DNA from: Thermoanaerobaculia bacterium
Lineage (GTDB): Bacteria; Acidobacteriota; Thermoanaerobaculia; JALWYX01
Direction: 5' to 3'
Assembly (NCBI GenBank): GCA_027078415.1
Contig: JALWYX010000064.1
Span: 1-39,273 of the forward strand
DNA length: 39,273 nucleotides
The notes under the pieces were generated by a model. The model made no database searches, was not told where the DNA came from, and saw only the letters and a list, made by a program, of their open reading frames with translations. The position numbers and the translations under genes were made by a program. Below are positions 32,384 through 36,252 of the stretch, piece after piece; position 1 is the first letter of the stretch, and the number at the start of each line of letters is the position of its first letter.

Positions 32384-32862
32384 ACTTTCACTCGGTTAAA
32401 ATAATAAAATATACAAAACCTACTTTAGCCAGAGAGGCCGTACATACTAACCTTAAATATCCTCTTACTAATAAAATATCTCCCAATACTTCTTAAAAAT
32501 TTTTAAAAATGTAAATTTACCCGTGTTTATTAAACATAACTACAAAAACAAAACAACAATCTTTACTTATCCCAAACGACGTTATAAATTACCACGCACC
32601 TAACAACTTTGCAAATCCAGATAATATAAGAGCAAAAACCTCTCAACGATCTAAATAAAGTATTTCCTATCCAATACAGATTAAGTACAAACGTAGAAAA
32701 ATATATACGCCACGGATCAAATATAGGTAGGATTAACCTATCCTTAAATGAACTAAACGTTAGATTCTAGAACAGGAGTATCTGCTACAATTCAAACACA
32801 AACATTTCACATAAGATAAAAAATGTAGTACAATTTAGCAAATAAAAAAGGAGGAAGGTAAT
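32384..32862. other. 480-bp AT-rich gene-free stretch
   Basis: No credible gene is seen between sdhB and the P-domain protein; a run of short frames has no ribosome binding sites. A weak promoter-like pair (TTTCAC at 32805, TACAAT at 32829-32834, 18-base spacer) lies about 30 bases before the next start and may serve the P-domain gene. Confidence 0.5.
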
Positions 32863-33489
32863 ATGAAAAAAGTAACGAAAATAGCGGGACTTATAGCCTT
32901 TATACCAACTCTCACTTTAGCTCAGATATATACAACTTCAGATGCACCTATATCTATACCTGACGGTGGTGGTACTGCAAATCCAGCATGTCAAACTATA
33001 ACAGTCGCAGGAGGACCTACTTCAATAACCCAAGTAGGAGTCTCTGTAACACTTACACACACCTGGCTAGGCGATTTAGCTATAGAAGTCACATCTCCAG
33101 CAGGTACCACACTTACTATAGCTAATAGACCAGGTCATCCTGGAAGCTCCTTTGGAGACAGCTCCGATTTAGACCCTAACTATCCTCTAGACTTTGATGA
33201 CGGCTTCGGTTTAGACGCAGAAGCGATGGGTGCTGCTTGTCCTAACAGTGGAGACACTGTAGGGTTAGATTGTGATGATCCTCCAGACTATTTCCCTAAT
33301 CCAGATGGAGCCGGTACAGGAGGTGGAGTAGGTACAAACTTTAGCGATTTTGCTGGAGAAGATTGCAACGGTACGTGGACTTTATGTGTAATGGACAACG
33401 TAGGTGGAGATTCAGGTACCTTACACAGTTGGTCACTTGCTTGTAATGCAACAATACCTGTTACTCTAAAGAGCTTCAGCATAGAGTAG
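32863..33489 (+). CDS. Secreted stand-alone P-domain (P/Homo B) protein
   Basis: 208 aa. A signal peptide (residues 1-20, cut near TLTLA) precedes a P/Homo B-type beta-sandwich: SVTLTHTWLGDLAIEVTSPAG and later NGTWTLCVMDNVGGDSGTLHSW are diagnostic of the C-terminal domain of proprotein convertases and many bacterial exoproteases. No protease domain is attached. Between them is an acidic Asp/Gly/Pro-rich insert (FDDGFGLDAE, LDCDDPPDYFPNPDG) likely to bind calcium. Six cysteines (43, 126, 137, 168, 175, 194) suggest disulfides. The protein ends IPVTLKSFSIE, which could be a cut-down sorting or anchoring tag. Very strong AAGGAGGAAGG site and own terminator suggest high expression. Confidence 0.82.
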   Translation: MKKVTKIAGLIAFIPTLTLAQIYTTSDAPISIPDGGGTANPACQTITVAGGPTSITQVGVSVTLTHTWLGDLAIEVTSPAGTTLTIANRPGHPGSSFGDSSDLDPNYPLDFDDGFGLDAEAMGAACPNSGDTVGLDCDDPPDYFPNPDGAGTGGGVGTNFSDFAGEDCNGTWTLCVMDNVGGDSGTLHSWSLACNATIPVTLKSFSIE

Positions 33490-33505: not shown

Positions 33506-33549
33506 AATTAAAAAGGGAGAAACGTCTGTTTCTCCCTTTTTAATTTTTT
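33506..33549 (+). terminator. Intrinsic terminator of P-domain gene
   Basis: An 18-bp perfect stem (33506-33523 with 33528-33545, core GGGAGAAAC/GTTTCTCCC) with a GTCT tetraloop, followed by a T-run through 33549. It lies 17 bases after the P-domain stop. Because the outer stem is A/T, it may also work in the reverse direction. Confidence 0.88.
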
Positions 33550-33879: not shown

Positions 33880-36252
33880 ATGGCTACTTTTACAAAAAAC
33901 AAAGCTGTATTACCCGAGAAAGAGGTAATTCTTAGGGATTATAAAATAGCAAGAATAAGTAGAGAAGCTAGTTTACGCGGTAGGCAAGATGTTTTCTTTG
34001 GTAGAGGTAAATTTGGCATATTTGGAGATGGGAAAGAGGTAGCCCAAGTAGCTCTAGCTCATTTTTTTAAAAAGGGAGATTTTAGATCCGGTTATTACAG
34101 GGATCAAACTATTCTGTTTGCTCAAGGAATTCTTTCTGTAAAGCAGTTTTTTGCGCAACTATATGCAGACTTTCATCCGGGTCACGATCCTTTTTCACAA
34201 GGTAGACAGATGAACAACCATTATGCAACTCCTATATTTGACGAGAAAGGTAATTATACAGAACACACCAAACAGTACAACCATATAGCAGACCTAGCTC
34301 CTATAGCTGCTCAGATGCCTAGAATAGTTGGTCTCACGCAGGCTTCTGTTTTTTACCGTCAACGTGAAGAGTTAAGAGGCAGAACCCATTTATCCAACAA
34401 CGGTAACGAAGTTATCTTTGGAACTATCGGCAATGCAGGATGTGCGGAGGGAATATTCTGGGAAACTATAAACGCTATTGGTATAATACAAGGTCCAGCA
34501 GTCATATCTATATGGGATGACGGATACGGAATATCGGTACCTAACGAATATCAGATAGCAAAGGAAGATATAGGAGAGATATTACAGGGTTTTGCTATAG
34601 AGGATGGCAAAAAAGGAGGATATCTGATTTTGAAAGTCAAAGGTTGGGACTACCCTGCCTTATATCAAACTTACAAACAAGCAACTGAAACAGCTAGAGA
34701 TCACCATATCCCTGTAATAGTACATGTCGAGGAGTTGACCCAACCACAAGGACATTCTACTTCCGGTAGTCACGAGCGCTATAAACCTAAAGAACGACTA
34801 GAGTGGGAAAAAGAGTTTGACTGTCTAAAGAAAATGCGTGAATGGATGGTAGCGGAAAAAATAGCTACCGAAGAGCAATTGGATTTCATAGATCAGGAGG
34901 CCAAAGAGTTTGTAAGAAAAGAGAGAGACGCAGCTTGGGAAGAATTGCAACAACCTATACGAGAGGAGAAAAAGAAGCTGTTTACTATATTAGAAAAAGT
35001 AATAGAGGAGACAGGAGATAGATCTTTAAAAGATAGAATGGGAGAGTTAGATAAGAAACAAATACTTTTATACCGCAACTTACTCTCTTTAGCTAGGGAA
35101 ACCAAATTTATATATCACGACTCCAAAGCAAGCTCTATATCTGAACTGAACCGGTGGATAGAAGATCTGGAGAGCAGGCTAGATCAATACGTATCGACGC
35201 ATCTGTACAGTTCTACACCTAAGTCTCCCTTAAACGTAAAGGAGATAAAACCTGTATATTCCGAGGATTCTCCTGTTCTCTACGCATTTGAAGTTTTAAA
35301 CCGTTTCTTTGATAAGGCGCTGGCTAAGTATCCTGAGATGGTGATATTTGGAGAAGATGTAGGTCATTTAGGAGATGTTAACCAAGCGTGCGCCGGATTA
35401 CAGAAGAAATATTCAAAATTAAGGGTGTTTGATACCGGTATAAGAGAAGCAACTATATTAGGTCAAGGAATAGGTTTAGCTTTACGAGGATTTAAACCTA
35501 TAGCAGAGATTCAATACCTAGATTATCTTCTATACGCACTTCAAATAATATCTGACGATTTAGCCACGCTACGTTACAGAACAGCTGGAATTCAAGGGGC
35601 CCCAGTTATTATAAGAACTAGAGGTCACAGGTTGGAGGGTATATGGCATACCGGTTCTCTTATGGGAGGTATACTAAACCTGGTACGAGGTGTTTGGGTA
35701 TGTGTACCAAGAAATATGACTCAAGCGGCTGGTATGTACAACACCCTTTTACAAGGAGATGATCCTGCTATAGTAGTTGAAGTACTCAACGGGTATCGTC
35801 TCAAAGAAAAACTTCCAGATAACATAGGAGAGTTTAATGTACCTTTAGGTATTCCAGAGGTTCTACGCGAAGGTAAAGATATAACAATAGTTACCTATGG
35901 AGCGTGTTGTAGAATAGCTCAAGAAGCGTGTAAACTACTATCACGCAAAGGTATCGACGCCGAACTGATAGACATACAAACTTTGACACCGTTTGATCGA
36001 CCCAACACTATACTAGAATCTGTCAAAAAAACTTCTAGGTTACTTATAGTTGACGAAGATGTTCCCGGTGGAGCATCCGCTTATATACTAGACCAACTTA
36101 TAAAACGAGACATATTTTGGTGGCTAGACAGAGAACCATTTACTCTAACAGGCAGAGCACATAGGCATCCGTACGGCTCTGATGGTGATTACGTAGCAAA
36201 GCCTAACAGAGAAGATATAGTAGAAGCAGCAGAAAACTTAGTTAAGGGATAA
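33880..36252 (+). CDS. Fused 2-oxoacid dehydrogenase E1 (alpha-beta), branched-chain or pyruvate type
   Basis: 790 aa; E1 alpha and beta in one chain. Decarboxylates a 2-oxoacid with thiamine diphosphate and passes the acyl group to a lipoyl E2. The alpha part (1 to about 450) has the ThDP motif in the variant form GNAGCAEGIFWE...IWDDGYGISVP (about 182-222) rather than GDG...ENN, as I recall for fused E1s of Bacteroidota and relatives. The beta part (about 460-790) has FGEDVGHLGDV, FDTGIREATILGQGIGLALRG, IIRTRGHRLEG, and IVDEDVPGGASAYIL. AAGGGGG ribosome binding site. No E2 or E3 gene is in the window. Substrate (pyruvate or branched-chain oxoacids) cannot be settled by sequence alone. Confidence 0.88.
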   Translation: MATFTKNKAVLPEKEVILRDYKIARISREASLRGRQDVFFGRGKFGIFGDGKEVAQVALAHFFKKGDFRSGYYRDQTILFAQGILSVKQFFAQLYADFHPGHDPFSQGRQMNNHYATPIFDEKGNYTEHTKQYNHIADLAPIAAQMPRIVGLTQASVFYRQREELRGRTHLSNNGNEVIFGTIGNAGCAEGIFWETINAIGIIQGPAVISIWDDGYGISVPNEYQIAKEDIGEILQGFAIEDGKKGGYLILKVKGWDYPALYQTYKQATETARDHHIPVIVHVEELTQPQGHSTSGSHERYKPKERLEWEKEFDCLKKMREWMVAEKIATEEQLDFIDQEAKEFVRKERDAAWEELQQPIREEKKKLFTILEKVIEETGDRSLKDRMGELDKKQILLYRNLLSLARETKFIYHDSKASSISELNRWIEDLESRLDQYVSTHLYSSTPKSPLNVKEIKPVYSEDSPVLYAFEVLNRFFDKALAKYPEMVIFGEDVGHLGDVNQACAGLQKKYSKLRVFDTGIREATILGQGIGLALRGFKPIAEIQYLDYLLYALQIISDDLATLRYRTAGIQGAPVIIRTRGHRLEGIWHTGSLMGGILNLVRGVWVCVPRNMTQAAGMYNTLLQGDDPAIVVEVLNGYRLKEKLPDNIGEFNVPLGIPEVLREGKDITIVTYGACCRIAQEACKLLSRKGIDAELIDIQTLTPFDRPNTILESVKKTSRLLIVDEDVPGGASAYILDQLIKRDIFWWLDREPFTLTGRAHRHPYGSDGDYVAKPNREDIVEAAENLVKG

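Follow-up and report, generated by a model that had tools for sequence, protein, structure and literature searches.

A short, acidic-ended C-terminal tag on a secreted stand-alone P-domain protein and on unrelated exported proteins of Acidobacteriota and Gammaproteobacteria, a candidate sorting signal

In the PEP-CTERM/exosortase (EpsH) system (PMC1569441), a short C-terminal region recurs on many unrelated signal-peptide proteins, several per genome, and the partner was recognized through its phylogenetic profile. GlyGly-CTERM/rhombosortase (PMC3237569) has a many-to-one tag whose cargo families also carry alternative tails and whose target adjoins the partner in single-target genomes, and the signal of the type IX secretion system (T9SS) is a folded Ig-like domain (PMC11285876). 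The tag described below likewise sits on many diverse signal-peptide proteins per genome, as in PEP-CTERM; it shares with GlyGly-CTERM the many-to-one relation, the alternative tails and the closeness of target and partner in single-target genomes; and, as in T9SS, it is a C-terminal feature of Sec-exported proteins in outer-membrane bacteria. It differs from PEP-CTERM in lacking a membrane helix or basic cluster, in being only ∼11 residues long with a terminal Glu, and in its partner, which is a chaperone where PEP-CTERM has a membrane transpeptidase and which is not universal. GlyGly-CTERM combines a Gly/Ser motif with a membrane helix and a basic end, and the tag has neither helix nor basic end; in contrast to the T9SS signal, it is an 11-residue tail instead of a folded Ig-like domain. 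In its distribution the tag resembles PEP-CTERM and GlyGly-CTERM, and we infer that it serves as a C-terminal protein-sorting signal. The tails of 11 tagged proteins gave no match to NCBIfam models, IPTL-CTERM (TIGR04174) included, and no description of the tag was found in the openly licensed PMC literature.

The window, by which we mean the whole stretch of 39,273 nucleotides that was analysed, comes from a Thermoanaerobaculia genome (G000; 1.96 Mb, 80 contigs, 97% complete), and the features of the gene under study are collected in Table 1. Its product had been described in an earlier note as a secreted P-domain protein standing alone, and this description holds: the protein matches PF01483 (P_proprotein) at 62.1 bits, where the cut-off is 21, with an Asp-rich insert dividing the match into two stretches, its N-terminus (MKKVTKIAGLIAFIPTLTLA-Q) reads by eye as a Sec signal peptide, and Pfam found no S8 protease domain in its 208 residues. 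It contains six cysteines, and inserts occur at the same position in tagged P-domain relatives. Structure prediction, which the note had proposed, agrees with the family assignment. The AlphaFold2 model, built from four sequences and of low confidence (mean pLDDT 57.7), carries the P-domain strands at residues 42–88 and 170–194, leaves 90–158 unresolved and places the tag downstream of the last long strand (185–194), and Foldseek, with a best E of 2.7e-6, matched the P-domain core to chains of furin and Kex2. The protein shares sequence and fold with the P-domain of proprotein convertases, from which it differs in being stand-alone, tagged cargo with no protease domain.

Table 1. Features of the P-domain gene and its surroundings (positions in the window).
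Feature	Position	Strand	Evidence
Coding sequence, 208 aa, ATG start; secreted P-domain protein with C-terminal tag	32863..33489	+	ORF list, sequence, Pfam
Shine-Dalgarno-like GGAGGAAGG, 4 bases 5' of the ATG	32850..32858	+	sequence
Signal peptide, codons 1–20 (MKKVTKIAGLIAFIPTLTLA)	32863..32922	+	sequence; cleavage site by eye
P-domain (PF01483), first stretch, model positions 2–38	33028..33138	+	Pfam and structure match
Asp-rich insert within the P-domain, unresolved in the model	33139..33342	+	sequence, AlphaFold2 model
P-domain, second stretch, model positions 53–85	33343..33441	+	Pfam and structure match
C-terminal tag IPVTLKSFSIE, residues 198–208, immediately 5' of the stop codon	33454..33486	+	pattern and profile searches
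18-bp hairpin, terminator-like, possibly bidirectional	33506..33545	.	terminator scan; count not above shuffles

The surroundings of the gene are housekeeping in character: sdh genes precede it, and genes for a fused dehydrogenase E1 and a Sir2 protein follow. The terminator scan assigned the hairpin to the minus strand, although its stem is symmetrical, and neither terminator-like sites (1 found; shuffle mean 0.8) nor promoter-like sites in the region (2 found; 4.8 expected) were in excess. These chance-level counts lend no support to the abundance that the note had suggested for the protein. A role as a separately supplied stabiliser of a protease, which the note had suggested, was rejected: the tag sits on unrelated cargo, neither adjoining gene encodes a protease, and none was seen among ten further window ORFs scanned. 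Nor is the gene simply a truncated protease gene, the alternative that the note had raised in case all relatives had a fused protease, since short tagged P-domain relatives exist; at least four others (L006/L165, L131, L149 and L193) leave no room for a protease domain. These four, of a size similar to that of the window protein, come from four other genomes. As an aside, the fused alpha-beta dehydrogenase E1 protein of the window (33880–36252, 790 aa) is alike by eye to a second one encoded elsewhere in the same small genome (L244, 11119–13443, 774 aa).

The note had also singled out the end of the protein as a short tag and proposed searching the genome for it. That search, now run, found four tags, and the reach of the tag proved far wider than the note had said. 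The pattern, [VIL]-P-V-x-L-x-x-F-x-[VI]-E-COOH, recurs where unrelated exported proteins end, right at the stop codon, and its consensus is [VIL]-P-V-E-L-[QM]-S-F-[ST]-[VI]-E-COOH, with D or N endings in some genomes. Searching DNA for P-V-x-L-x-x-F-x-[hydrophobic]-E-stop, with the reversed pattern as control, gave three exact matches in the window genome and none for the control; a composition estimate with an assumed 1800 proteins puts the chance expectation at ∼0.0006, and the tag is therefore not a chance feature. Two more places appear at one mismatch, one a tag (PVTLKSLFVE, contig C40) and the other, on C3, not. All four tags found in this genome follow a divergent dialect, P-V-x-L-K-x-[F/L]-x-[V/I]-E, in which −6 is K and −8 is never E. 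The nearest stand-alone relative (L006, genome G038) also has a tag at its end, PVELLTFSIE. Scored against a tag profile built from named genomes, to which four of the tested genomes also contributed, the window tail reached 24.6 bits. In a background of 1087 ORF tails (835 distinct), no tail other than this one and that of L006, also a true tag, exceeded 8 bits, and the next best scored 0.4. Among 146 distinct tagged ORFs, a few of them chance matches, position −2 is V or I only, and 139 have V, L, I or T at position −11. The search pattern itself sets P, V, L, F and the final E, and the named-genome search partly sets −8 as E and −6 as Q/M.

Seven genomes matched in a sample of 60 that included the window genome, one of them through a TGG codon alone, and the reversed control gave nothing in 60/60. 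In a sample of 396 genomes from the phylum, 20 matched, of which we count 11 as real carriers and nine, with a single match each, as chance. The carriers hold 56 places (G000 3, G003 7, G009 1, G038 14, G051 2, G238 11, G337 3, G353 4, G387 1, G395 8 and G402 2), or 54 once the one place each in G038 and G238 that ends in TGG is set aside, whereas the reversed control gave 19 single matches over the 396 genomes, never more than one per genome and none in any of the 11 carriers. A single match, as in G009 and G387, is insufficient alone; both genomes also carry the chaperone family F1, described below, beside a tag-like neighbour. The window genome has four tags that were found, and the sampled relatives have up to 13 (G038). 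One of the TGG places (L047, G038:C15:11407–11439) is a perfect tag followed by TGG in place of the stop and ∼48 residues of read-through, a possible stop loss.

Of 150 distinct tagged ORFs, at least three of them chance matches, a heuristic signal peptide was read in 116 and a lipobox in three, 15 are cut off by the end of the locus, and the remaining 19 do not pass the signal-peptide heuristic, some through a non-ATG start and three as chance matches. Pfam, run on 93 chosen tagged ORFs, assigned seven to the P-domain and six to the lamin-tail domain (LTD), with no more than three in any other family; the P-domain share is not a frequency, as five were known before the choice. The minor families include kelch propellers, a beta-helix and one S8 protease, and the P-domain is one among many types of tag cargo. 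A tagged S8 subtilase (L137, 302–2134) and a protein with a tagged end that is P-domain-like by motif (L139, 167–1300) were seen in one assembly, JAICEW01. Two untagged homologues of tagged proteins (L156, 4596–7250; L297, 12995–14119) bear a hydrophobic IPTL-CTERM-like tail; the IPTL-CTERM model scored L297 at 15.5 bits, below its cut-off of 20.5, and did not match L156. These sequences are suggestive of tail swapping between the tag and IPTL-CTERM-like tails.

Clustering of the genes around tags brought out two families that are themselves untagged, F1 and F2, in 16 and 15 of 180 loci respectively. F1 proteins are ∼600 residues long and contain two PPIC-type PPIase domains, that is, two SurA/PrsA-like chaperone-parvulin units in tandem; a structure model (pLDDT 87.8) matches SurA, PrsA and HP0175. 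With these F1 shares the N-terminal helical chaperone part and the parvulin domain, and it differs from them in its tandem units, in being often encoded in pairs and in its link to the tag. F2 belongs to the sulfatase superfamily and contains TPR repeats; its T83, invariant across 10 aligned members, occupies the position where sulfatases have Cys or Ser and is, we presume, the catalytic residue at the nucleophile position. At 18 of 22 F1 loci an F2 gene is no more than 500 bp from F1. A lipobox regex matched 12 of 31 F1 and 10 of 20 F2 ORFs, with start codons uncertain. Genes for FG-GAP/ASPIC-UnbV proteins (family c4/F6) are also recurrent next to F1, F2 and tag loci, L149 and L246 among them. 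The neighbours of the four other tagged stand-alone P-domain genes (L149, L165/L246, L131 and L193) are F1, F2-family or FG-GAP/ASPIC genes; none of these adjoins the window gene.

The F1 profile has 12 rows, some supplied by the carriers G238 and G353 and by nine of the 16 F1-positive named genomes introduced below. Ten of 12 carriers had a best F1 match at E 3.1e-82 or better; for the two others, and for each of 24 non-carriers, it was no better than 5.9e-47. With three candidates per genome scored, full-length F1 was found in nine of the 396 phylum genomes (E 3.1e-82 or better), all nine of them tag carriers; four other genomes of the phylum (G034, G067, G194 and G362) pass 1e-45 with partial matches only. 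Fisher's test on this co-occurrence gives 9e-17, or 3e-13 with the chance matches counted as carriers, both uncorrected for shared ancestry, and families f2, f12 and f13 each contain F1-positive carriers as well as F1-negative non-carriers. In ten F1-positive genomes, eight of 47 strict tags have F1 no farther than 5 kb away, against 0.31 expected, and the other 39 do not. Viewed from the F1 side, the tag profile applied in all frames finds a tag-like tail within 5 kb at 22 of 26 F1 loci (18/22 and 4/4; the lossier count from gene-caller ORFs only is 16/22), including PVELLYFNID, PVELMSFGID and PVELLEASVE. Of the four loci without one, three are at contig ends (G051:C24, G337:C96 and G353:C21), and at the fourth (G003:C5) a homologue of the usual tagged protein bears a hydrophobic IPTL-like tail. 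Variants adjoining F1 (L273, L275, L276 and L303) end in SAE, GVD, DVN and GID, so in some genomes, above all in G337, there are more tags than the strict pattern with its final E counts.

F1 cannot be the universal reader of the tag, a role that we considered and rejected. It was found neither in the window genome (6.9e-32 at best, covering 168 of 583 positions) nor, by its profile, in G038 with its 13 tags, nor in 10 of 26 pattern-bearing named genomes, and no recurring gene was seen by eye among the neighbours of tags at seven loci of F1-negative genomes. F2 likewise fails as a specific marker of the tag, as its family is present in 32 of 36 genomes at E 1e-60. The 20 best F2 matches are all in carriers, two of which gave profile rows. 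In the window genome, an F2-like gene close to the tagged gene on C40 matches weakly (160 bits) and lies by eye among sulfate-activation genes. At that locus (L245, G000:C40, 748–7720) the genes in line with the fourth tagged gene read by eye as encoding a putative metalloprotease, a fused ATP sulfurylase/APS kinase, a CysQ-like protein and a sulfatase-like protein.

Beyond the phylum sample, a scan of named genomes returned at least 117 stretches with the pattern, from Acidobacteriota MAGs and Gammaproteobacteria; among the matches listed, the latter comprise Dokdonella, Xanthomonadaceae, Lysobacterales and Alcanivoracaceae, and there are single records labelled Deltaproteobacteria, Phycisphaerales and others. 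In 26 named genomes picked for their pattern matches, the pattern was present in all and the reversed control in none. Full-length F1 (E 5.1e-59 or better) was found in 16 of these, with three Gammaproteobacteria (Lysobacterales, Alcanivoracaceae and Xanthomonadaceae) among them. Three Dokdonella genomes are among the ten in which F1 was not found. These ten are G426 (11 tags), G420, G434, G423, G435, G429, G432 and G442, with a best F1 match of 4.9e-37, together with G438 and G440, in which the pattern itself looks like a chance match. A record titled as a Klebsiella pneumoniae MAG (CAMBFS01) carries three PVEL tags (L069, L096 and L162) and gives the impression of being mislabelled.

We consider it somewhat more probable than its negation, at roughly 55%, that the last 11 residues are a previously undescribed C-terminal sorting tag without a membrane helix, escorted by F1 where F1 is present. 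A tagged protein would pass the inner membrane by Sec and lose its signal peptide, leaving the tail exposed, with its strand-like hydrophobic pattern and a free acidic residue at the end. A periplasmic reader would then bind the tail, and unrelated cargo would be sent to one destination, either passage through the outer membrane or attachment at the cell surface. F1, usually encoded next to F2 and near a tagged gene, is, on the genomic evidence above, probably the reader or escort in most carriers that have it. It is not the whole story, since the window genome, G038 and G426 carry tags without it; either there is another, universal reader to which F1 is an add-on, or F1 has been replaced, or it was missed in fragmented assemblies. 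In the window genome, where no F1 was found, the P-domain would simply be cargo, and the proposal in the note of a surface or appendage component is compatible with this.

Four other explanations of the tag were weighed. The tail could be the terminal beta-strand of a shared fold, capping a beta-sandwich, and so no signal at all: V-x-L-x-x-F-x-V is strand-like and much of the cargo is beta-rich by eye, yet that cargo spans P-domain, LTD, kelch propeller, beta-helix and S8 protease, and the window model, at low confidence, puts the tag past the last long strand. The position of the motif also makes this explanation unlikely. Searched without the stop in 12 carriers, the motif occurs in 75 places (reversed control, 12), and 62 of these, two TGG places having been dropped, lie directly before a stop codon, against ∼3.5 expected at 3/64; the 13 others are about as many as the control gives, and most of those inspected have no relation to the tag or lie out of frame, the exceptions being a few extended tails such as PVELMSFSIED-stop. 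The same count led us to reject the tag as the start of a longer domain and bears on whether it is the remnant of a longer C-terminal module. In Bacteroidota a 'PVELxSF...' strand precedes type IX secretion tails, and the wording of the motif is similar; however, TIGR04183, the T9SS tail model, matched neither the window protein nor anything in 10 of the 12 carrier genomes, the window's included, and was above cut-off only once each in G387 and G395, in proteins of ∼1600 residues. A T9SS tail was accordingly rejected, and a remnant of this kind is very improbable.

A degradation or quality-control signal for a periplasmic tail-specific or PDZ protease would suit the strict C-terminal position and the chaperone genes close by. 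Tails recognized by PDZ/Tsp proteases usually end in a hydrophobic residue, unlike the acidic end of the tag; dozens of exported proteins would moreover carry such a signal constitutively, and no protease appears among those recurring neighbour families that were annotated, all of which makes this explanation improbable. The tag might instead accept a covalent modification or anchor, with F2, as a member of the sulfatase/alkaline-phosphatase superfamily with its Thr, transferring a group to a tail presented by F1. The closeness of F2 to F1, the carrier origin of the best F2 matches and the invariance of T83 speak for this, but non-carriers too are rich in F2-family proteins, the only invariant side chain that the tag could offer as acceptor is that of the C-terminal acidic residue, and no transpeptidase-like family is found among the few annotated neighbour families; we regard an acceptor role as unlikely. 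Returning to the sorting tag, a more specific form of it is possible, though less likely than not: an export or surface-display pathway in which F1 would capture the soluble, acidic-ended 11-residue tail and F2, with its Thr nucleophile, would act on the cargo or on its lipid anchor, the whole perhaps forming a sorting class without helix or folded C-terminal domain across Acidobacteriota and Gammaproteobacteria. The C-terminal sorting signals compared here consist of a motif, a helix and a basic end, or of a folded domain, and a helix-free tag of 11 residues would be a new class. Through it, many exported proteins that are now just 'hypothetical' in uncultured Acidobacteriota become approachable, and F1 is a testable partner for it.

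A regex for LFA(H/D)GFE-like ends, run over the collected loci, gave no further clear case beyond the two that led to it. These are neighbouring ORFs of a Dokdonella sp. (L086, 3737–4996 and 4725–6815), which end LFAHGFE-stop and LFADGFE-stop at a locus that also holds a PVEL-tagged gene, and their ends are possibly a second short C-terminal tag.
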